Positions 13,557-33,105 of a stretch of DNA of 64,000 nucleotides are shown one piece after another (positions within the stretch are counted from its first letter, which is position 1; every line of letters starts with the position of its first letter). Origin of the DNA: Planctomycetota bacterium. GTDB taxonomy: Bacteria > Planctomycetota > UBA1135 > UBA2386. Location of the stretch: assembly GCA_016793265.1 (NCBI GenBank), contig JAEUHT010000114.1, positions 1 to 64,000 on the forward strand, read 5' to 3'. A model generated the notes under the pieces. That model saw only the letters and a program-made list of their open reading frames with translations, ran no database searches and was not told where the DNA came from. The translations under genes and the position numbers were made by a program.

Positions 13557-14849
13557 TCAGCGGGTCACGGTGGCGAGCCGGTCGCGCAGCCAGCTCAGGG
13601 TCGGTTCGTGGTAGTCGTGCTGCGCCTCGCGCTGCTTCAGGAACGCGTCGGCGCCGGGGTTGGCGCCGAGGCAGAGCAGCGCGAAGGCGGCGTTGACGCG
13701 CACGTCCATCGCCTGGCCAGGGTCGGCGAGCAGCTGCTCGAAGGTGGCGGCGCTGGCGGCGTCCTGCAGCACGCCGAGCGCCTGCACGCAGGCGGCGCGC
13801 ATCTCGGCGTCGGGGTCGGCGAGGCGCGCGCGCAGGTGTGGCACGGCGTCCTGGTAGCCGATCTCGCCGAGCGTGCGCACCGCGTAGGACGCGGTCAGCG
13901 GATCCTGCAGCAGCGGCAGCAGGGCTGGGCCGGCGCGGTGGGCGATCGGGCCGAGCTGCGTCAGCACGTCGAGCGCCATCGAACGCAGGTAGGGCTCGCT
14001 GGCCGAGAGGGTGTGCACGAGGCGCGGCACCACCAGGGCGCCGCCGCGCGCCAGCACCCACTTCGCCTCGTCGATCGGGCGCAGCGCGAAGCCCTCGGCG
14101 ATGGCGAGGTGGGCGGCCAGCGTGTGGTCGAGCTGGGCGGCGTCGATCGTGGCGCCCTGCCAGTCGGCCCGGGTGCCGCGGCGTCGCCAGGCATCGGTGA
14201 GCTGCTGCAGCTGCGTCTGCAGTTCGACGTAGGTCGGTCGTTCGCTGAGCTCGACGTTGCGGTCGCCGAGGATGCCGATACCGAGGCTGCCGGCGAGCTG
14301 CTGCACCTTCTCCGAGTTCATCGCCGACGCGAGCCAGGCGAGGCCGGTGTCGTTGCCGAGGCGCTGCAGCGAGTCGGCGGCCCAGACGATCGCCTCGCCG
14401 TCGGTCTCGTACTTGAGGCGCAGCAGCAGCGGGAACTGCAGCAGCGGTTGGTTGCTGCGACCACACAGCCAGGCGGCGCGGCGGCGCACCTCGACCTTGT
14501 CACTGGCCAGCGCCGGTTCGAGCACGCTGGTGAGCCCGGGGTCGCCGAGCAGGGAACGTTCGGCGAAGGCCGCGGTGCGTTCGTCGCTCTCGACGAGCTG
14601 CAGCACGATGTCGGCGAGCTCGCGCAGCTCCTTCTGCTTCGCCGCTGGCGGTGGTGCCGCGGCCTTGGCCAGCGCGTCGAGCTCCGCCTGTTGTGGAGCG
14701 AGCTGCAGCGGCGGCAGGGGCGGGTGCTGCGCAGCCGGTTGCCCGGTCGGACCGCCGCAGCCACCGATGCCGAGCAGGATCGGCGCCAGCAGCGAAGGCC
14801 AGCGCGGAGTCGGCCGCGACGGGCACGGAACGCTGGTAGGGGGCCTCAC
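13557..14849 (-). CDS. HEAT-repeat lipoprotein
   Basis: This is a 430-residue lipoprotein. The N-terminus has a hydrophobic stretch ending at a lipobox-like LGIGGC, followed by a Pro/Gln-rich linker. The body is built of helical repeats with HEAT spacing (VRRRAAWLCGRS, YLRSMALDVLTQLG, ASYAVRTLGEIG, MRAACVQALGVL, DVRVNAAFALLCLG), giving a scaffold of at least five repeats. No catalytic motif is seen. GTG 14849 overlaps the stop of the pentaheme cytochrome gene (GTGA), so it is the last gene of the long minus-strand run. A role as a partner of the cytochrome is only a guess from position. Confidence 0.7.
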   Translation of the reverse strand: MRPPTSVPCPSRPTPRWPSLLAPILLGIGGCGGPTGQPAAQHPPLPPLQLAPQQAELDALAKAAAPPPAAKQKELRELADIVLQLVESDERTAAFAERSLLGDPGLTSVLEPALASDKVEVRRRAAWLCGRSNQPLLQFPLLLRLKYETDGEAIVWAADSLQRLGNDTGLAWLASAMNSEKVQQLAGSLGIGILGDRNVELSERPTYVELQTQLQQLTDAWRRRGTRADWQGATIDAAQLDHTLAAHLAIAEGFALRPIDEAKWVLARGGALVVPRLVHTLSASEPYLRSMALDVLTQLGPIAHRAGPALLPLLQDPLTASYAVRTLGEIGYQDAVPHLRARLADPDAEMRAACVQALGVLQDAASAATFEQLLADPGQAMDVRVNAAFALLCLGANPGADAFLKQREAQHDYHEPTLSWLRDRLATVTR

Positions 14850-15859
14850 CGTTCGATCCTCTTCTCGACGAGCATGGTGCTGCGCGGATCCTCGTCGCCG
14901 CAGAACGGGGTCAGACGGTACCACAGCCGCACCTCGATCGCAGCGGTGCCGGCGGGGATCGGCACGCGCACGGTCTTCTGCTCGCCGGCCGGCAGCTGGG
15001 TGTTCTCGCCGGTGGCGTTGCCGGGGTTCACCGGGGTGGCCTCGTCGCGGTAGGGCATGCGGAAGCGGTAGGCACGTTGCCATTCGCCGGGGCTGGCGGC
15101 CGTGGCGAAGCGGTACATCATGTCGACCGCGCGGTGGCGCTCTTCGGTGGGGAAGTTGTGGCCGGCGCCGACGTTCGCGAGCGTCAGCACGAGCTCGTCG
15201 CCGATCGCGGCGGCGTCGAAGGTGTAGGTCTTGTCGAGCCAAGCCTTGTCGTGGCAGCCCGGGAACACGTGCCCGCGGCCGAGCCGCTTGCTGCCGTCCT
15301 GGCGCGCGCGGTCGACGGCCGGCATGTGGCAGGAAGAGCAGTCGGTGCCCTGCTTGGCGAAGGTGCTGGCGCGCCACTGGTCGGTGGTGCCGTGTTGGTT
15401 GTGGCACGACTCGCAGGCGCTGACGGCGAGGAACTGCTCGTTGCGCACCGGCCTGCACGGCACCTCGGGGCGGTCGTTGCGACCGACGATGCCGCCGTCG
15501 GGGCCGAGGTGGCAGGTGATGCAGCTCACGCCTTCGTCGAAGTTGGTGCGCCGCGGCAGCGTGCGCTTGCCGAAGCCGGTCACCGCGAGCGGTCGCGGCA
15601 GGTGGCAGTCCTTGCACTCCTCGAGGCGGAAGTCCTCGCTGAGCGCGCGCACCTCGGGGTTGGTGAAGGAGATCTGGTGGTGGCTGCCTTGCCACTCGTC
15701 GTAGACGTCCCGATGGCAGTCGCGGCACTGCGTCGACGACTCCCAGCGGGTCTCTGCGGCGGCCGCGTGGGGTTTGCGGCCGGAGTCGAGGAACACCAGC
15801 GTGCCAGCGAACACGGCGAGCACGGCGCCGGCGATGGCGATGCGGGAGGAGAGTCGCAT
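14846..15859 (-). CDS. Membrane-anchored pentaheme c-type cytochrome
   Basis: This is a 337-residue multiheme cytochrome. Residues 7-24 form an N-terminal membrane anchor or uncleaved signal. Five CxxCH sites follow: CRDCH (45-49), CKDCH, CITCH, CESCH and CSSCH, all in the first 180 residues. A further FPGCHD lacks the first Cys. Spacing and extra His residues resemble the cytochrome c554-like multiheme class. The C-terminal third is beta-rich (YTFDAAAIGDELVLTLANV, then GHNFPTEERH) and has no heme sites. Periplasmic electron transfer is likely; the partner is unknown. It ends 4 nt into the HEAT lipoprotein gene and follows the ABC ATPase gene by 13 nt. Confidence 0.85.
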   Translation of the reverse strand: MRLSSRIAIAGAVLAVFAGTLVFLDSGRKPHAAAAETRWESSTQCRDCHRDVYDEWQGSHHQISFTNPEVRALSEDFRLEECKDCHLPRPLAVTGFGKRTLPRRTNFDEGVSCITCHLGPDGGIVGRNDRPEVPCRPVRNEQFLAVSACESCHNQHGTTDQWRASTFAKQGTDCSSCHMPAVDRARQDGSKRLGRGHVFPGCHDKAWLDKTYTFDAAAIGDELVLTLANVGAGHNFPTEERHRAVDMMYRFATAASPGEWQRAYRFRMPYRDEATPVNPGNATGENTQLPAGEQKTVRVPIPAGTAAIEVRLWYRLTPFCGDEDPRSTMLVEKRIER

Positions 15860-15872
15860 GCGGGGGATCGGT

Positions 15873-16904
15873 TCAGGTGAGGGCGGCGGGAGCCTGCCAC
15901 GGCAGCAGGCGGGCGGGGCCATTCAGCACGAGGCGTACCATCGTGTCGGCGGGCAGGGCGCGATCGTGGCGGCAGTGCACGACCTGATCACCGAGCGCGA
16001 GCCGCAGGTGGAAGCCGGTGGCGTCGGGGGTCGCGGCGATCAGCCGGGCCGTGGTGGTGGCGTTCGCCGTGCTGTCGGCGGCGACCGCGACGTCGCCGGG
16101 CAACAGCACGTGGCGCAGATCACCCGGCTCGGCCGGGGCCGGGAAGCTGCCGAACGGCGTCACCACCGCGGCGCCGTCGCGCCGCGCCGGCAGGCAGGCG
16201 GCGCCGAGCAGGAACGCGGCGGTGAAGGCCGTGCGCGGCCGCTGCACGAGTGCGGCGGCGGTGCCGTGTTCGACCAGCTTGCCGGCGCACAACACGACCA
16301 ACTCGTCGGCGAGCGCCAGCGCTTCGTCGCGGTCGTGGGTGACCAGGATCGTCGTCGTGCGGCGTTCGCCGGTCAGCTCGCGCAGCAGCGTGACGAGGCT
16401 GTCGCGCTGGTGCACGTCGACCGAACGCAGCGGTTCGTCGAGCAGCAGCACACCAGGGCCCGGCGCCAGCGCCCGCAGCAGACCGAGCCGCTGCGCCTCG
16501 CCGCCCGACATACGCGGCGGCTTCTTGTGGGCCTGGGCGCCGAGGCCGGCGCGTTCGAGCAGCGCCAGCGCCGCCGCCTTGCCGAGCCCCGGCGCCGCGA
16601 ACGTCAGGTGCTGCAGCGCGGTCATGTGGGTCCACAAGGCGCCGTCCTGGAACACCATGCCGACGCCGCGCAAGGCCGGGTCGAGGTGGACGCGGTCGGC
16701 GGCGACGAGCTGCTCGCCGATGCGGATGCTGCCGCCGTCGACGCGCTCGAAGCCGGCGACGCAGCGCAGCAGCGTGGTCTTGCCGGAGCCCGACGGGCCG
16801 ACGATGGCGAGCCGGGTGCTGGCGGCGACCTCGATGTCGAGCGGACCGAGGGTGAAGCCGGCACGGCGGAGGTGCAAAGCCTGGATGCGGACTTGGAGGC
16901 TCAC
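15873..16904 (-). CDS. ABC transporter ATP-binding protein, ferric-type (FbpC-like)
   Basis: This is the 343-residue ATPase subunit of an importer. Walker A is GPSGSGKTT, the signature loop is MSGGEAQRLGL (a variant of LSGGQ), Walker B is VLLLDEPLRSVD and the H-loop is ILVTHDRDEA. A C-terminal domain of about 110 residues is where FbpC/PotA-type ATPases carry a TOBE/regulatory domain. It starts at GTG 16904, 7 nt after the permease stop. Together with the neighbouring fused permease and the binding protein, it makes a complete iron(III)/sulfate-class importer. The substrate is inferred from the binding protein's family. Confidence 0.88.
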   Translation of the reverse strand: MSLQVRIQALHLRRAGFTLGPLDIEVAASTRLAIVGPSGSGKTTLLRCVAGFERVDGGSIRIGEQLVAADRVHLDPALRGVGMVFQDGALWTHMTALQHLTFAAPGLGKAAALALLERAGLGAQAHKKPPRMSGGEAQRLGLLRALAPGPGVLLLDEPLRSVDVHQRDSLVTLLRELTGERRTTTILVTHDRDEALALADELVVLCAGKLVEHGTAAALVQRPRTAFTAAFLLGAACLPARRDGAAVVTPFGSFPAPAEPGDLRHVLLPGDVAVAADSTANATTTARLIAATPDATGFHLRLALGDQVVHCRHDRALPADTMVRLVLNGPARLLPWQAPAALT

Positions 16905-16911
16905 GCGGGGC

Positions 16912-18522
16912 TCAATCGAGGGAGGACAGCTTGCGGCCGGCGAGGATCGCCGGCAACAACGGGACCAGGACGGCGATGCTGAGGATCATCAGGGCGATGA
17001 CGCCGCTCCAGTCCTCGTGCTGGAAGTGCACGGCGTTGGCGAGGCGGCGCACGGCGGTGGCGTTGGCGGCCGGCAGCAGCACGGCGAGGTCGAGTTCGCG
17101 CAGGGCCAGCACGAACACCAGGACGCCCGCGGCCCAGCTCGACGCCGCCAGCGGCCGCACGTGCAAGCGCAGCGCGCGCACCGTCGCCGACCGCGGCACC
17201 AGGGCACCGGCCTCTTCGGCGGCTATCGGCAGGCGGCGTACGTGCGCCGCCAGCGTCAGCGCCGCGAACGGCACGAAGCGCGCGGCGTAGCCGCAGGCGG
17301 CGAAGCCCCAGGTGTCGTAGAAGTCGCCGCACCAGCGCAGCAGGAAGTGGTCGCTGTAGGTGCGCACGAGGCCGATGCCGAGCAGGATCGCCGGCAGGGC
17401 CAGGGGGATCGCGACCAGCAGTTCGAGCCACGGCCAGCGCCGCGCCGACGCGCGCGCCAACGGCAACGCCAGCAACAGCACGAGCACGGCGACGCCGGCG
17501 GCGAGCACGATCGAGTGCAGCAGGTCGGGCACGCCTTCGCTGACCGCCTTCTGGTAGCTCTGCTGGGCGAACTGCAGCGACATCGGTTCGAGCTTCTGCG
17601 CCGAGCCGAGCACCCAGCGCGCCAGCACGACGACCGGCAGTGCGAGGCCGAAGCCGAGGTAGCCGAGCGGCAGCAGCAAGGCGGGCCAACGCAGCTTGCC
17701 GAGCGGGCGCACCGGCAGCGGCCGCAGCACGCCGCGGTCCGGCGCCGCCGCGCGCAGCCGCAAGGCAGCGTAGAGCAGACAGCCGAGGCCGGCGACGTAC
17801 GGCAACGCCGCCACCAGCGGGCTCTGCAGCTCGGCGAACGTGGTGCCGACGGCGCGCCGCGTCCAGCGCGAGAAGATGCCCTCGGCGTAGGTATGCCAGG
17901 TCTTGCCCTTCACGGTCAGGAACTCGGGCACGCCGTGGTCGGCGACCGTGAACAGGAAGGCGAGCAGGCAGCCGGCCAGCAGCTCGGGCAGGATCGCCCG
18001 CAGGAGCCACAGCTCGGCGCGGGCGCCGCCGCGCAGCAGCAGCGCCGACTCGAAGGCGCGGCCGTCGATCGCGCGCAGGCCGCGCGCCGCCAGCACGGCG
18101 ACGAACGGCGCGTGGGCGACGCCGAGCAGCCACGCACACGGCCAGAAGCCGGTGGTGTCGCTGACGTCGGCGAGCCCCATGGCGATGAAGATCGGCGGCA
18201 CCGCCAGCGGCGCCACGCCGAGCGGCGCCAGCCAGACGGCACCCGGCACGCCGCGGTGCAAGGTCAGCCAGGCGTGGCCACCGCCGCACAGCAGCGAGAT
18301 CGTGGTCGCGGCGAGGCCGAGTGCGAGCGAGGCGCGCAGTTGCTGCAGCGCGTTCTCGTCGTGCGCCAGCTCGCGCCAGGCGTCCAGCGTGAAGCCGTCA
18401 GGGCCTTGCACGGTGCCGACCGCGAGCAAAGCGAGCGGCGCCAGCACGAACGCGAACAGGAAGGCGAGTGCCAGCCAGAGCGGCCACCGGGACCAGCACA
18501 GGCGGTGGCCGCTGCGGATCAC
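16912..18522 (-). CDS. ABC transporter permease, fused two-domain (FbpB-like)
   Basis: This is a 536-residue inner-membrane permease with about 12 hydrophobic segments in two halves, each a BPD_transp_1-type domain, as in ferric iron FbpB and related permeases. EAA-loop-like sequences face the ATPase: AFESALLLRGGARAE in the first half and EEAGALVPRSATVRAL in the second. GTG 18522 overlaps the binding-protein stop (GTGA). It forms the channel for the substrate delivered by the lipoprotein encoded just upstream. Confidence 0.87.
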   Translation of the reverse strand: MIRSGHRLCWSRWPLWLALAFLFAFVLAPLALLAVGTVQGPDGFTLDAWRELAHDENALQQLRASLALGLAATTISLLCGGGHAWLTLHRGVPGAVWLAPLGVAPLAVPPIFIAMGLADVSDTTGFWPCAWLLGVAHAPFVAVLAARGLRAIDGRAFESALLLRGGARAELWLLRAILPELLAGCLLAFLFTVADHGVPEFLTVKGKTWHTYAEGIFSRWTRRAVGTTFAELQSPLVAALPYVAGLGCLLYAALRLRAAAPDRGVLRPLPVRPLGKLRWPALLLPLGYLGFGLALPVVVLARWVLGSAQKLEPMSLQFAQQSYQKAVSEGVPDLLHSIVLAAGVAVLVLLLALPLARASARRWPWLELLVAIPLALPAILLGIGLVRTYSDHFLLRWCGDFYDTWGFAACGYAARFVPFAALTLAAHVRRLPIAAEEAGALVPRSATVRALRLHVRPLAASSWAAGVLVFVLALRELDLAVLLPAANATAVRRLANAVHFQHEDWSGVIALMILSIAVLVPLLPAILAGRKLSSLD

Positions 18523-19538
18523 AAGCCGAACCGCTTGCCGTAGTCGCGGCTCATCGCGGCGAGGTTCGCCGCCGTCCAGTCGATGTCCCACTGCATGGCG
18601 CGGAACGCGCCCGGCGCCTTGATGCCGGGGTCCTTCGGCCCCGGGATGCCCGCCCGCAGCGGGATCTGCGCACCGTCAGCTGCTGCCAGCAGCGCCTCGG
18701 TCTCGCGGGCGAGGATCCTGTCGATCAGCTGCTTGGCCGCTGCCTGGTTGGGCCCGCCCTTGATCAGTGCCACCGAGTTCGGGATCAGCATGGTGCCGAT
18801 GCCCCCGTCCTGCTGGTCGGGGAACACGCAGGCGACCTTGAAGCCCTTCTTGGCCGCCTCGTGGTAGTCGTCGGTGTCGGTGAAGGCGAACGCGAGCTTG
18901 CCCTCGCGCACCGCGCGCAGCGTGGCACCGTTGCTGGCGAGGAACTGCACGTCGTTCGCGAACATGCCGTCGATCCAGGCCGTGAACGCCGGTTCCCCGA
19001 GCAGCTTGCGCATCGCCGTGAAGTGCGTCATCGTCGTGCCGGTCAGCGGCTTCGCCACCGCGCAGCGGCCCTTCCACTTGGGGTCGACGAGATCCCGGTA
19101 GCTGGTCGGCCACGACGCCGGATCCGGCAGCAGCTCGGTGTTGACGACCAGGATGCGGGCGCGCGCCGCGAACGCGGTCCAACGGCGCTGTGGATCGCGC
19201 CACATCGCCGGGACGTCCTGCGCCGACGGCGAGTCGTACGGCTCCAGCAGGCCCTGGTTGGCGAGGTGCACGGTGTTGGCGAGCTCGTTGTTCCAGAACA
19301 CCGAACCGCGCGGGTTGGCGCGCTCCTCGACGATGGCGCTGACGTGGCCGACGGTCTTGGCGGCCTCGGTGTCGTGCTGCTGGTCGAGGGTGATGCCGAG
19401 CTCCTTGGCGAAGCTGTCGAGCAGCGGGGCGCTGAACTGCTGGTCGAGCGAGACGTAGATGCGGACCGCGCTGCCGGTGGGCTTGGCGCCGCAGCCGGCG
19501 AGCACGACCGCGAACAGCACGGTGGAGAGGGCGCGCAT
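18519..19538 (-). CDS. ABC transporter substrate-binding lipoprotein, ferric-type (FbpA-like)
   Basis: This is a 339-residue periplasmic binding protein anchored as a lipoprotein (VVLAGC lipobox). It belongs to the extracellular solute-binding family 1 group that binds ferric iron: RIYVSLDQQFSAPLLDSF near the N-terminus, FWNNELANT, and LVDPKWKGRCAVAKP in the hinge region. Several Tyr residues that could bind iron are present, but exact ligands cannot be assigned by eye. An upstream AGGAACC could serve as ribosome binding site for ATG 19538. It is followed directly by permease and ATPase genes. Confidence 0.85.
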   Translation of the reverse strand: MRALSTVLFAVVLAGCGAKPTGSAVRIYVSLDQQFSAPLLDSFAKELGITLDQQHDTEAAKTVGHVSAIVEERANPRGSVFWNNELANTVHLANQGLLEPYDSPSAQDVPAMWRDPQRRWTAFAARARILVVNTELLPDPASWPTSYRDLVDPKWKGRCAVAKPLTGTTMTHFTAMRKLLGEPAFTAWIDGMFANDVQFLASNGATLRAVREGKLAFAFTDTDDYHEAAKKGFKVACVFPDQQDGGIGTMLIPNSVALIKGGPNQAAAKQLIDRILARETEALLAAADGAQIPLRAGIPGPKDPGIKAPGAFRAMQWDIDWTAANLAAMSRDYGKRFGL

Positions 19539-19587: not shown

Positions 19588-20547
19588 TCAGCGATCGCGG
19601 TAGGTCTTGTGGCATTCCTTGCAGCTCTTGCCGAGCGAGTTGACGAGCTGGTCGGCGGTGGCGGCATCGTTGGCGCGCACGGCGGCGTCGAGCTGTTTGC
19701 TGGCGAGGATCGAGGCGTCGAGCGCCTTCAGGAAGTCGTCCTCCTTGACACACTCCTGGTCGGCGGCGACGCGGGCGAAGGCGGCGGCGAGGCGCTCGGT
19801 CTCGTGCGAGGCGACGAGGTCAGGGTGGTCGGCGGGCGCCTTCCAGCCGGCCTTCTGCGCGCGCTTCACGAAATCGAAGACCTGGTCGATCTCGTTCATC
19901 AGCGACACCATGCCGCTGGCCTGCGTCAGCTTCGGCAGCGTGTCCGGGTCGATGCGCAGCTGGTCTTTGGGCAGCGGGGCGGCGTTGCGCACCGACTGCC
20001 AGAGGCCCTGGTAGTCCTTGGCGGTGCCCGACACGCTCATGCGCGCCATGGCGGCCTCCGGCGTCAGCTTGCCGCACAATACGACGGCCGACGCCAGCGC
20101 CGCGGCGCTGCGGTGCTTGCCGTGGTGGCAGTGCATGTAGATCGGGCCGCCGCAGCTCGTGATCGCCTGGGCGAGTTCCTTCTGCCGCTCGACCGGCACC
20201 TTGTCGTAGCTGATCGGCAGGTGCACGTAGCGCATGCCGTACTTCTCGGCCAGCTCGACGTCGGGCAGCATGCCATCGACGGAGATGATGGTCTTGATGC
20301 CGAGCCCGGCCAGCGAACGCATGCCGGCCTCGTCCTCGGGGGCGCCGCCGCTCAGGAGATTGTCGTCATAGGTGACGATGTTGTGCACGCCGGGCAGTTC
20401 GGCGACCGTGGTGGCGGACTTGGCCGGCGGTGTGTAATGCTCGGTCGGCAGCACCCTCTGCTTCTGGCCCGAGGCGCACGCGGGGAGGAGGGCGAGCGCC
20501 GCGAGTGGCAGCAGGGAGAGGGGGAGCAGGATGCGTGAGGGGACCAT
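19588..20547 (-). CDS. Tyrosine-phosphatase / cytochrome c' fusion lipoprotein
   Basis: This is a 319-residue exported protein joining two unrelated domains. The N-terminus is a signal peptide with a lipobox-like LLPAC (Cys24). Residues 50-200 match a dual-specificity/tyrosine phosphatase fold: LSGGAPEDEAGMRSLAGLGI, then the P-loop MHCHHGKHRS with nucleophile Cys140 and Arg146 in a CX5R arrangement. Residues about 205-319 are a four-helix-type domain ending CKECHKTYR (309-317), the heme-attachment signature at the extreme C-terminus of cytochrome c'. It could be a heme- or gas-responsive periplasmic phosphatase; that is inference. It lies 49 bp upstream of the ferric-type ABC genes and may head that operon. 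Confidence 0.75.
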   Translation of the reverse strand: MVPSRILLPLSLLPLAALALLPACASGQKQRVLPTEHYTPPAKSATTVAELPGVHNIVTYDDNLLSGGAPEDEAGMRSLAGLGIKTIISVDGMLPDVELAEKYGMRYVHLPISYDKVPVERQKELAQAITSCGGPIYMHCHHGKHRSAAALASAVVLCGKLTPEAAMARMSVSGTAKDYQGLWQSVRNAAPLPKDQLRIDPDTLPKLTQASGMVSLMNEIDQVFDFVKRAQKAGWKAPADHPDLVASHETERLAAAFARVAADQECVKEDDFLKALDASILASKQLDAAVRANDAATADQLVNSLGKSCKECHKTYRDR

Positions 20548-20770: not shown

Positions 20771-22033
20771 ATGGCCCGCGCCGCCAGCCTCCACTTTCTG
20801 CTGCTCGGCTTCTTGGCGGCTCCGGCCGCTGCGCAGGGTTTCCACCAGCGCCTGGCCGTCGACTATGCGCGCACCGCGGCCGACAACGCCGCGACCGCGC
20901 TCGACCGGCGCCTCGCCGCCGGCGAACTCGACCTGCCGGCCGCCGGGCCGAGCGGCCGCCTGCGCGCCGTGCTGCGGGCCCTGACGGTGCCCGAGTCGAG
21001 CCAGATGCTGGTGTTCAGCAAGACCAGCCTGCAGCGGCACAGGATCTCGCCGGCCAGTCCGCGCGCGTTGTTCTTCTCTGCGGATGCCTACGTCGGTTGG
21101 GTGCCCGGAGCCGCGCAACTCGAGGTCGCCGTCGGCGACGCCCGCCTCGGCCTCGTCTTCTACACCGTAGCCCAGGATGCCGCGCAGCCGGCGCGCTTTG
21201 TGCGCGACGACTCCTGTCTGAGCTGCCACGCCAGCGAACGCACCGACGACGAACCGGGGTTGGTGCTGCGTTCGGTGTTCCCCGACGCCGACGGCCACCC
21301 GATCACCGCGGCCGGCGAAGTCGACGTCACGCTGCGCACGGCGTTGCGTGACCGCTGGGGCGGTTGGCTCGTCACCGGGTCCGCCGGTCCGCACCGCGGC
21401 AACGGCGTCGCTCGTCGCGACGAACGTGGCCGCTACGTGGTGGTGGCGCGCGAGGCCGCGGACCTGACCACGTTCGCCGACTGGTTCGATGCCGCCGCCT
21501 ACCCGGCGCCGCACAGCGACATCGCCACCCTGCTCGCGTTCGAGCAGCAGGCGACGCTGCACAACCTGCTGATCCGGTCGTCGCTGCAGATGCGCTGCCT
21601 GCTCGACAACGACCGCGCCGTGAACGGTCTGCTCGGCGAGTCCGGCCTGCGCGAGCAGACGGCGCGGGTGGCCGATCGGCTGGCGGAGGCGATCGTGGGC
21701 GCCCTGTTGTTCGCCGACGAAGCGGCCCTCGGCGGCCAGGTCAGGGCGGCTGAACCGGCCTTCGCACGCGACTTCGTGGCGGCCCTGCCGGTCGACGCCG
21801 ACGGCGGGCGGCTCGGCACCTTCGATCTCCGCCAGCGCCTTTTCACCCTGCCGCTGTCGCCGATGGTGCACGCGCCGGCTTTCGGCAACCTGCCCGCACC
21901 CCTGCGGGATCGGGTGCTGGCCCGGCTGCGCAGCGCGCTGCAGGACGGCAAGCTGCCGGCGGGGTGTTTCCTGACCGCGGCCCAGCGCCGCGCGCTCGAC
22001 CGGCACCTTCAGCAGACCTTGGCCGGGTACTGA
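20771..22033 (+). CDS. Exported protein with a single CxxCH heme site, function unknown
   Basis: This is a 420-residue protein with a cleavable signal peptide (FLAAPAAAQG). One c-type heme site, CLSCH, lies near residue 148 and is followed by SERTDDEPG. The preceding region contains VFSKTSLQRHRISPASPRA and a 'YVGW' segment that looks highly conserved in character. I recall similar blocks in planctomycete cytochrome-like hypothetical proteins but cannot name the family. The rest is alpha-helical, without a second heme site or obvious enzyme motif. It is divergent from the phosphatase/cytochrome c' fusion gene and shares its upstream region, so co-regulation is plausible. Confidence 0.65.
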   Translation: MARAASLHFLLLGFLAAPAAAQGFHQRLAVDYARTAADNAATALDRRLAAGELDLPAAGPSGRLRAVLRALTVPESSQMLVFSKTSLQRHRISPASPRALFFSADAYVGWVPGAAQLEVAVGDARLGLVFYTVAQDAAQPARFVRDDSCLSCHASERTDDEPGLVLRSVFPDADGHPITAAGEVDVTLRTALRDRWGGWLVTGSAGPHRGNGVARRDERGRYVVVAREAADLTTFADWFDAAAYPAPHSDIATLLAFEQQATLHNLLIRSSLQMRCLLDNDRAVNGLLGESGLREQTARVADRLAEAIVGALLFADEAALGGQVRAAEPAFARDFVAALPVDADGGRLGTFDLRQRLFTLPLSPMVHAPAFGNLPAPLRDRVLARLRSALQDGKLPAGCFLTAAQRRALDRHLQQTLAGY

Positions 22034-30357: not shown

Positions 30358-33105
30358 ATGGTGTTGCCCATTCCCGTATCGCCCTTCGCCGTTTCACGGT
30401 CGTCGCGACTCCTAGCCCTAGCGCTGTTGGCCGCGGCCTGCAGCAGCAACAACAACTCGTCGCCTGCCATCGGCGTCGCCGACGAACCTGTCGTGGGCAC
30501 CTACGATGCCCTGCCGGGTGTGGTGGTGACCATCGAGGATGTGCGCGGCACCACCTCGGGGAAGGCCAACGTCGGGGACCTGCTGGAGGTCGACTTCACC
30601 GTCGCCACCACCGGCGGCGATCCGCTCGAGCTGTCGACGATGGCGCGCGGCGCCATCATGGTCTCCGGGCCGACGTCCAACTACCAGCGGGTGATCGCCT
30701 CGCAGGGGGACGTGCTGACCGCCGCCACGAAGCGTGCGATCGGCGCCTACACCTACAAGTTCTCGGTGCCGATCCCGAGCACCTACCTGGCGCCGCTCAA
30801 CGACACCGAGGATCTGACCGAAGGTGAGTTGACCGGGGAAGCGCTGCTCAGCGGCACCTACACGGTCGGCATCGAGATCCGCAAGGACTACACGGTCGAT
30901 GGCACGACCTACCGGGACCCCGGCAACGCCAGCATGGACTTCCTGCTCGGCAGCGCGACGACATTGGAACCACGCGAGGTCGTGACGCTGGCGCACTGCA
31001 ACGTGTGCCACACCGAACTGCACGCGCACGGCGACAATCGCGACAAGATCGTCAATTGCCTGCTCTGCCACACGAGCGGCGCCGAGGACCGCAACACGTC
31101 GAGCGTCGCCGGCGGCACGCCGGGGGTGTCGATCGACTTCAAGGTGATGATCCACAAGATCCACGCCGGGGCGTTCCTGCCCTCGGTGCTGGGCGTCACC
31201 ACCAACCCCGACGGCTCGCGCAAGTACGACGCGACGCCGCAGCCGTACGAGATGATCGGCTATGGCGATTCGCTGATCGACTTCTCCGAGATCGAATTCC
31301 CTGCCTGGCCGAGCTTCTACACGGGAATGCCGCGCGACCAGGGCTACACGACGCTGACGTCCGGCCAGCAGTCGCTCGAGAACACCATGCGCAAGATGCC
31401 GGTCGGCTGTGACAAGTGCCACGGCGACCCGGACGGCGATGGCCCGATTGCAGCACCCGCGCAAGGTGACCTGATCTGGACGCAGCCGACCATCGCGGCG
31501 TGCTCCTCGTGCCACGACGACTGGAACCCGGAGTACCCCTATGTCGCCAACGGCCTGACGATGCCAGCCCAGCCGGACAACGAGACGTGCACCGTGTGCC
31601 ACGCCGACAGCGGCTCGGTCATCGCGGTCCAAGACGCGCATCGCCATCCGCTGGTCGACCCCGACGTCGCCCTCGGCCTGCACGTGAACGTCACCGCGGT
31701 CACCGACCAGGGCGGCAACGACAATGGCAAGTTCGACGCCGGCGAGCGCATCCAGATCACCTTCCAGGTGGTCGATGACAGCGAGACCCCGGTCACGGTC
31801 AGCGCGCTGAGCCGCCTCGAAGCAACCCTCACCGGCCCAACCGAGAATCCGCAAGCGGTGACCTACATCCGAGTGGCGCCAGCCTACTTCACGGGCACCG
31901 GCCCGTTCACCGTCAACCTGCCGGCGCTCGTGTTCTACGAGCCGATCGGCACCTCGAATGGCTCGCTAAACACGTTCTCGACCGCGCTCACGCCGGTGTG
32001 GAACGTCACGGGAGCTACCACCACGCTGCTGCGTCGCACCGGCGTCGGCAATAGCTCGACGCTGGCAGCGGGCGCCGAGATCGCGCAGAACTACATCGAT
32101 GTCGCCGATGGCACGCAGTTCGCCAACGGCGACTACATCGTCATCGACGACCTCGTCTCCGGCACGCGCGAGTACATGCGCATCCAGTGGGTCGAGGACA
32201 ACCGCCTGTGGTTCGGCAACCAGTTCCGCACCACCTACAAGCCAGCGTTGCTGCGCGCGCACGCGATCAATGCCACGGTCGACGTCGTGACGACGAGCAG
32301 CGTCTCGGCGAGCAACTACACAGTGGACCCGGAGACGGGCGTCATCACCGAGACCGTCGAGTTCGGCGCTGGCGAGATCCTCTGCAACTACACGAGCGAC
32401 TTCGTCGTGCCCTCGGTCTACCCCGGCGCGCTCGAGGACACGCCGACCAATGGTCAAGACTGGGGCGATTGGACCGGCCTCGCCATGGTCGATGGCACGT
32501 ACCTTCTCGACCTGCACGCGGCGCGAAGTCTGACGGTCACCCGCGCTGGCGAGAACACGAGCTACACCGAGGCCGCTGACGGGGCGATTACGCCGCTGCT
32601 GTTCGGCGCCGCCGACGAGGTGACGCTGGTGGAACGCACCCAGGGTGCCGTGACGTGCATCAAGTGTCACGACAACATCCAGTTCCATGGGGGATCGCGC
32701 CGGGGCGTCGAGACCTGCATTGCCTGCCACAGCACCGCAGGAGCCGAGCTGACGCCGCTCTACGAGAACCAGAGCACGGGCGCCTGGGGCACCCCGGTCG
32801 AGTTCCGCTACATCGCGCACGAGTTCCACGAGGGCGTGTTCCCAGCCATGCCGGGTGGCGTGCAGAACTGCGCGGTGTGCCACGGTGCCGACAACACGGC
32901 CTGGGTCCTGCCGGCCACGCGCCTGCACCCGGACCAGACCGTGCCGACGCGAGCCTGGAATGCGGCGTGCAGCAGCTGCCACAGCAGCACCGCCGCGGTC
33001 GCGCACATCGTCGCCAACACCAGCCCGAGCGGCTACGAGGCCTGCCTCGTCTGCCACGGTGAAGGCAAGGAGTTGAACGTCCGCACGGTGCACGCCCTCA
33101 AGTGA
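30358..33105 (+). CDS. OmcA/MtrC-family decaheme c-type cytochrome lipoprotein
   Basis: This is a 915-residue outer-surface-type cytochrome. The signal peptide ends at lipobox LAAAC (Cys28). Ten CxxCH heme sites fall in two pentaheme groups: CNVCH, CLLCH, CDKCH, CSSCH and CTVCH (about 214-415), then CIKCH, CIACH, CAVCH, CSSCH and CLVCH (about 767-900). Beta-rich segments flank and separate them, as in the split-barrel/pentaheme architecture of Shewanella MtrC and OmcA. Members pass electrons from the periplasm to extracellular metals or other acceptors. No MtrA or MtrB homologue is adjacent, so the conduit partner is elsewhere or different. The 273 bp upstream contain no gene; a strong terminator follows. 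Confidence 0.9.
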   Translation: MVLPIPVSPFAVSRSSRLLALALLAAACSSNNNSSPAIGVADEPVVGTYDALPGVVVTIEDVRGTTSGKANVGDLLEVDFTVATTGGDPLELSTMARGAIMVSGPTSNYQRVIASQGDVLTAATKRAIGAYTYKFSVPIPSTYLAPLNDTEDLTEGELTGEALLSGTYTVGIEIRKDYTVDGTTYRDPGNASMDFLLGSATTLEPREVVTLAHCNVCHTELHAHGDNRDKIVNCLLCHTSGAEDRNTSSVAGGTPGVSIDFKVMIHKIHAGAFLPSVLGVTTNPDGSRKYDATPQPYEMIGYGDSLIDFSEIEFPAWPSFYTGMPRDQGYTTLTSGQQSLENTMRKMPVGCDKCHGDPDGDGPIAAPAQGDLIWTQPTIAACSSCHDDWNPEYPYVANGLTMPAQPDNETCTVCHADSGSVIAVQDAHRHPLVDPDVALGLHVNVTAVTDQGGNDNGKFDAGERIQITFQVVDDSETPVTVSALSRLEATLTGPTENPQAVTYIRVAPAYFTGTGPFTVNLPALVFYEPIGTSNGSLNTFSTALTPVWNVTGATTTLLRRTGVGNSSTLAAGAEIAQNYIDVADGTQFANGDYIVIDDLVSGTREYMRIQWVEDNRLWFGNQFRTTYKPALLRAHAINATVDVVTTSSVSASNYTVDPETGVITETVEFGAGEILCNYTSDFVVPSVYPGALEDTPTNGQDWGDWTGLAMVDGTYLLDLHAARSLTVTRAGENTSYTEAADGAITPLLFGAADEVTLVERTQGAVTCIKCHDNIQFHGGSRRGVETCIACHSTAGAELTPLYENQSTGAWGTPVEFRYIAHEFHEGVFPAMPGGVQNCAVCHGADNTAWVLPATRLHPDQTVPTRAWNAACSSCHSSTAAVAHIVANTSPSGYEACLVCHGEGKELNVRTVHALK

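Follow-up and report, generated by a model that had tools for sequence, protein, structure and literature searches.

An exported phosphatase of the dual-specificity type joined to a class II c-type cytochrome in Planctomycetota

Examination of the window, a stretch of 64,000 nucleotides from a genome of the Planctomycetota, revealed a gene coding for a protein in which a phosphatase domain is followed by a c-type cytochrome domain. This fusion gene heads a run of genes on the minus strand that continues with a solute-binding protein (SBP), a permease, an ATPase, a multiheme cytochrome and a HEAT-repeat protein. The features recognised at the locus are the following:

19588 to 20547, minus strand: phosphatase-cytochrome fusion gene, 319 amino acids plus stop (open reading frame, Pfam, full-length homologues)
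20476 to 20547, minus strand: signal peptide and lipobox Cys24 (LLPAC) (sequence; lipobox-like sites in homologues)
19987 to 20403, minus strand: phosphatase domain of the dual-specificity (DSP) type, residues 49-187 (AlphaFold2; Foldseek matches to TpbA, DUF442 and PFA-DSP1; PF22785)
20272 to 20280, minus strand: VDG motif, residues 90-92 (V90 in 72/72 homologues, D91 in 71/72, G92 in 71/72)
20203 to 20208, minus strand: invariant Tyr114, then Asp115, which pairs in the alignment with Asp105, the general acid of TpbA (alignment, conservation; PMC4409338)
20110 to 20133, minus strand: P-loop HCHHGKHR, residues 139-146, with the putative nucleophile Cys140, His145 and Arg146 (conservation in 72 homologues)
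19600 to 19914, minus strand: four-helix bundle of a class II cytochrome, residues 212-316 (AlphaFold2, pLDDT 91.6; Foldseek matches to class II cytochromes)
19897 to 19899, minus strand: Met217, predicted distal axial heme ligand (72/72; aligned with Met12 of c-556 and Met7 of b562)
19609 to 19623, minus strand: heme c attachment site CKECH, residues 309-313 (C309, C312 and H313 in 72/72)
18519 to 19538, minus strand: FbpA-like solute-binding lipoprotein, second gene of the run (PF13343; FbpA in the PDB, E 8e-21; synteny)
16912 to 18525, minus strand: ABC permease, start codon uncertain (weak PhnU/ModB-type matches; synteny)
15873 to 16904, minus strand: ABC ATPase (PF00005; synteny)
14846 to 15859, minus strand: multiheme c-type cytochrome, C554-like (PF13435; synteny)
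13557 to 14489, minus strand: HEAT-repeat protein closing the run, with an uncertain start (PF13646)

The fusion gene starts with an ATG at 20547 and stops at 19588-19590, its codons without the stop occupying window positions 19591-20547 on the minus strand. The original prediction, which omitted the strand, had described a 319-residue exported lipoprotein joining a tyrosine phosphatase to a cytochrome c' domain, and its length, motifs and residue numbers were all recovered as described. Cys24 directly follows a hydrophobic signal in the window protein, and a lipobox-like site is present in 50 of the 72 fusion homologues, the remaining ones seemingly being exported without a lipobox; the claim of an exported lipoprotein is thereby upheld. 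A search against Pfam placed two families above cut-off, PF22785 (Tc-R-P DSP-type phosphatase) at residues 75-159 (E 8e-8) and PF01322 (Cytochrom_C_2) at residues 268-317 (E 4e-6). These two matches, combined with the invariance of Cys140, Arg146 and CXXCH in 72 homologues, bear out the presence of a phosphatase and a heme domain in one protein. Structure prediction of both domains, proposed earlier as a check, gave a concordant picture: the AlphaFold2 model of the whole protein (mean pLDDT 89.5) consists of a confident DSP fold at residues 49-187 and a four-helix bundle at residues 212-316, and Foldseek backs both the DSP/PTP fold and the class II bundle.

The P-loop, HCHHGKHRS with Cys140 and Arg146, has exactly the form first claimed and carries the HCX5R signature of Cys-dependent DSP/PTP phosphatases. 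Conservation was scored over a set of 72 fusion homologues, two of them identical in sequence. Cys140, Arg146, Gly143, His109, Pro111, Tyr114 and Val90 of the phosphatase domain are invariant in this set, as are Met217, Cys309, Cys312 and His313 of the heme domain; Asp91, His139, His142, His145 and Arg317 have a single exception each, and Lys144 is kept in 59/72. Foldseek matched the whole model to TpbA (E 6e-6, prob 1.00), DUF442 and PFA-DSP phosphatases. TpbA, the periplasmic dual-specificity phosphatase of Pseudomonas aeruginosa (PDB 4R0S, 2M3V), is the top match by both fold and profile and, like the fusion, is exported. Its P-loop reads HCKHGNNR as against HCHHGKHR in the fusion, and its general acid is Asp105 (PMC4409338), with which Asp115 of the window protein aligns. 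TpbA is without a heme domain, whereas in the fusion family the general acid is not conserved (Asp115 is kept in 47/72 homologues and missing from a third) and VDG and His145 are found instead.

The GKHR P-loop with a putative catalytic His (here H145 in 71/72, K144 in 59/72) is a feature shared with the PFA-DSP1/Siw14 inositol pyrophosphate phosphatases, in which His155 of PFA-DSP1 corresponds to His145. These enzymes are eukaryotic and without heme and, despite the fold match, the fusion falls outside their family by sequence, its profile match being weak (E 0.02). His155 of PFA-DSP1 is the proposed base in a protein tyrosine phosphatase (PTP) without the Asp, and phosphate hydrolysis is known for such a PTP (PMC9038691). 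By analogy, His145 may substitute for the canonical general acid where Asp115 is missing, and Asp-independent chemistry is possible in the fusion phosphatase. One outlier fusion (L079, 9217-10005) has the P-loop TCETGRDR and VEA rather than VDG, and its phosphatase is possibly changed or inactive.

At the other end of the protein, the heme signature CKECHKTYR (309-317) was found just as predicted. The C-terminal CXXCH on a four-helix bundle that defines class II c-type cytochromes is supported by PF01322, by the AlphaFold2 model of the C-domain alone (pLDDT 91.6) and by Foldseek, which matched this domain almost only to class II cytochromes (E about 0.02-0.3, probability about 1, TM mostly 0.55-0.75), with NaxLS of Kuenenia first, followed by c' and cb562. 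NaxLS (Kusta0087/0088; TM 0.69-0.75) is also from Planctomycetota, but it is a heterodimer without a phosphatase and is described as an NO-binding partner of hydrazine synthase (PMC11897245).

Met217 is the sole column of the C-domain, besides C309, C312 and H313, that is conserved at 100% in the 72 homologues (column median 39%). In three MAFFT modes it shares its column with Met12 of c-556 and Met7 of b562, both established axial ligands, and with Leu16/Phe16 of two c' proteins; MAFFT may pull Met217 toward the Met of c-556 and b562, yet the c' residues fall in the same column. The reference sequences of Alcaligenes xylosoxidans c' and of c-556 matched PDB chains, and those of R. gelatinosus c' and b562 are presumed correct. 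Judged by this alignment, the fusion has a Met in the axial-ligand column as c-556-type cytochromes do. Cytochrome c-556 of Rhodopseudomonas palustris (1S05) shares the class II bundle of four helices, the CXXCH near the C-terminus and the axial-column Met, but is free-standing, whereas the heme domain of the fusion is joined to a phosphatase. Cytochrome c' of A. xylosoxidans has the fold and the CXXCH-xx-[YF]R end in common with the fusion, whose Arg317 (missing in one of 72 homologues) corresponds in position to the proximal Arg of c'; in the c' protein the sixth site is open and the distal residue is Leu16, in contrast to the invariant Met of the fusion. The distal residue of c' is usually a Leu or Phe that is not coordinated, although a non-coordinated distal Met is present, rarely, in some true c' proteins (PMC5390784). 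Because Met217 is invariant and aligned with the axial Met of c-556, the heme is more likely to be six-coordinate (His/Met) than to have the open pocket of c', and coordination by His313 and Met217 is probable; Met217 could instead act sterically at the distal site, a role that Met has on rare occasions in true c' proteins. NO may nevertheless bind here, given such c' proteins and the description of NaxLS, the closest structural match, as NO-binding. Of the gas-binding cytochrome c' domain first proposed, the class II four-helix bundle thus stands, while the gas-binding pocket is weakened by Met217, and the open pocket is disfavoured.

A search for the same architecture in other genomes, likewise proposed at the outset, returned the full-length fusion from 26 of 41 related genomes, the window's own counted, and from about 95 of 294 sampled Planctomycetota genomes (about a third), closed ones included. 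Full-length copies lie in 19 named GTDB loci, all of Planctomycetota where the phylum is named; the same holds for every match of named phylum in a pattern scan of genome contigs, which reaches close relatives only, and searching with a degenerate DNA pattern of the P-loop yielded no information. Two cultured strains carry the fusion on a plasmid, annotated as 'dual specificity protein phosphatase' in Aquisphaera giovannonii and as 'hypothetical protein' in Planctomyces sp. SH-PL62. PF01322 matches in the 41 related genomes are nearly all the fusion itself, with three others. The window genome is a draft (316 contigs, 81% complete), in which an assembly join or a misread fusion might be suspected; recurrence across many independent assemblies, closed genomes and the two named plasmids among them, makes the chance of this negligible and in effect rules out a join. 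The pairing of phosphatase and cytochrome is real, ancient and conserved.

In three genomes (loci L105, L106 and L109), phosphatase and cytochrome are separate adjacent genes on the same strand, each with its own lipobox-like signal. The L106 pair is translationally coupled by a stop/start overlap (GTGA), and the cytochromes of all three pairs keep the Met in the helix A region. Because they are unfused and each gene has its own lipobox, these adjacent pairs support a functional link between the phosphatase and the cytochrome. The divergences of the two domains are correlated (Mantel r 0.73, with 0/2000 permutations as high). A His precedes the P-loop Arg in 74/75 cytochrome-linked phosphatases (71/72 fused, 3/3 split), and 18 other, solitary homologues, for which a class II cytochrome is absent from the fetched stretch, have Asp (17) or Gly (1) at position 145. 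The latter mostly read HC..G.DRTG, as against HC..G.HR in the cytochrome-linked proteins, with an NLR-type motif (e.g. INLR) where the fusions have VDG. In the tree of phosphatase domains the fusions form one clade (97/89) and the solitary homologues another (100/99); the split pairs fall outside the fused clade, between both, on long, poorly placed branches, and an order of split before fusion hangs on the root and on these branches. The association of His145 with cytochrome linkage may reflect common descent only. At L109 (2482-3435, minus strand), the split-pair phosphatase is followed in the same open reading frame by an apparent second, degenerate DSP-like domain.

The original prediction placed the fusion at the head of a run coding for a ferric-type transporter and a cytochrome. 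The run is present, and the ferric-type label is borne out at the level of the family only: the solved structures nearest to its SBP (18519-19538) are of FbpA type, but a conserved TDTDD replaces NNYY, which contains the adjacent iron-binding Tyr pair of FbpA, and the notion of a ferric transporter as a clue to the substrate was set aside for lack of this pair. Models for 2-aminoethylphosphonate match the transporter genes below cut-off. In nine loci closely related to that of the window, the SBP, permease and ATPase genes come after the fusion, with the multiheme cytochrome next in 8/9, the ninth ending first. An NtrC-type response regulator (RR) ends 33-65 bp upstream of the fusion in seven loci and is preceded in most by a histidine kinase (HK), giving in close relatives an operon of the order HK-RR-fusion-SBP-permease-ATPase-multiheme cytochrome. 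One example is L023 (6330-9915, plus strand), where a histidine kinase and a sigma54-type response regulator lie directly upstream of the fusion, as in most close relatives. HK and RR genes are absent from the fusion locus of the window, and the best match of the kinase in the window genome (56% identity) is on another contig (C79). In the more distant L038, the multiheme cytochrome, SBP and ATPase adjoin the fusion in a changed order. Beyond the window's family, no neighbourhood conserved across the phylum was found; ABC ATPases occur beside some distant copies but are so common that they carry no weight as shared context, and chance may account for the two-component genes near L041 and L074.

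The best explanation, which we hold with middling confidence, is that the fusion is an exported phosphatase of TpbA/PFA-DSP type tied to a six-coordinate, c-556-like cytochrome, with an activity set by redox state. A mostly lipid-anchored, Cys-dependent phosphatase would be covalently joined to a one-heme class II cytochrome (His313/Met217), whose heme domain would exchange electrons with periplasmic carriers. The redox state of the heme would then govern phosphatase activity, either by moving the domains or by maintaining the catalytic Cys in its reduced form, and a periplasmic phospho-substrate would be attacked by the Cys140/Arg146 route, with His145 as the base where Asp115 is missing, in the manner suggested for PFA-DSP1 (His155). 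Within the family of the window protein, its partners would be the transporter and the multiheme cytochrome, and in most relatives a two-component system would stand above it. The analysis itself establishes the architecture, its conservation, the export signal, the folds as predicted, the single clade of fusions, the unfused adjacent pairs and the operon; catalysis, heme ligation, redox coupling and substrate are inferred. That it stands for a class of sensor-effectors, in which a covalently bound c-type heme, responding to redox or NO, directly switches a periplasmic phosphatase, is a more tentative proposition.

We consider it unlikely that the protein is a gas sensor, in which NO or CO would bind the heme, displacing Met217 if needed, and the resulting shift would switch the phosphatase. 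The class II bundle, the place of Arg317 and the structural match to NO-binding NaxLS (PMC11897245) are all consistent with such a sensor, but the distal Met is invariant where c' usually has a non-coordinated Leu or Phe (PMC5390784), and no gene family recurring nearby across the phylum points to NO metabolism. Somewhat less probable is a role other than that of a phosphatase, with Cys140 performing sulfur or thiol redox chemistry (sulfur transfer of BLH type) and the heme accepting electrons. Although a heme partner would fit a redox reaction best, Asp115 is not conserved and the NCBIfam models for Blh sulfur transferase/dioxygenase and TIGR01244 match weakly, these matches fall well short of the curated cut-offs, all 72 homologues retain Cys-X5-Arg, the closest folds are those of phosphatases, TpbA first, and a PTP without Asp can hydrolyse phosphates (PMC9038691). 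A lack of any regulatory coupling, with the heme domain acting as an electron carrier or as a docking module that takes the phosphatase to respiratory proteins, appears more improbable still: the cytochrome-linked phosphatases have a P-loop signature of their own, which a passive tether would leave unexplained. Six-coordinate c-556-type domains are electron carriers, and this, together with the multiheme cytochrome in the operon, is what speaks for such a passive module.

Heme-based sensors drive kinases, cyclases and chemoreceptors. Our literature searches found no description of an exported phosphatase that carries a c-type heme; both domains are of known kinds, and their stable combination is undescribed as far as these searches show. 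Our findings suggest that the fusion is an unstudied enzyme, the activity of which is possibly controlled by extracellular redox conditions. Extracytoplasmic phosphorylation in bacteria is little understood, and the fusion offers a directly testable case, being a single polypeptide with spectroscopic as well as kinetic readouts and with natural split versions as controls. If the sensor-effector reading is true, a heme-switched periplasmic phosphatase would be widespread in Planctomycetota, both in fused form and as pairs of genes.

Two other genes of the window, both on the plus strand, may be mentioned. A divergent gene of 420 amino acids (20771-22033) contains one CLSCH motif; neither Pfam nor NCBIfam gave a match for it, and tblastn found no counterpart in those neighbouring loci that were examined. 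At 30358-33105, 10 kb from the fusion, lies a gene for an OmcA/MtrC-type decaheme cytochrome (its score of 208.4 bits lies just under the cut-off, 209.3), a candidate for extracellular electron transfer.
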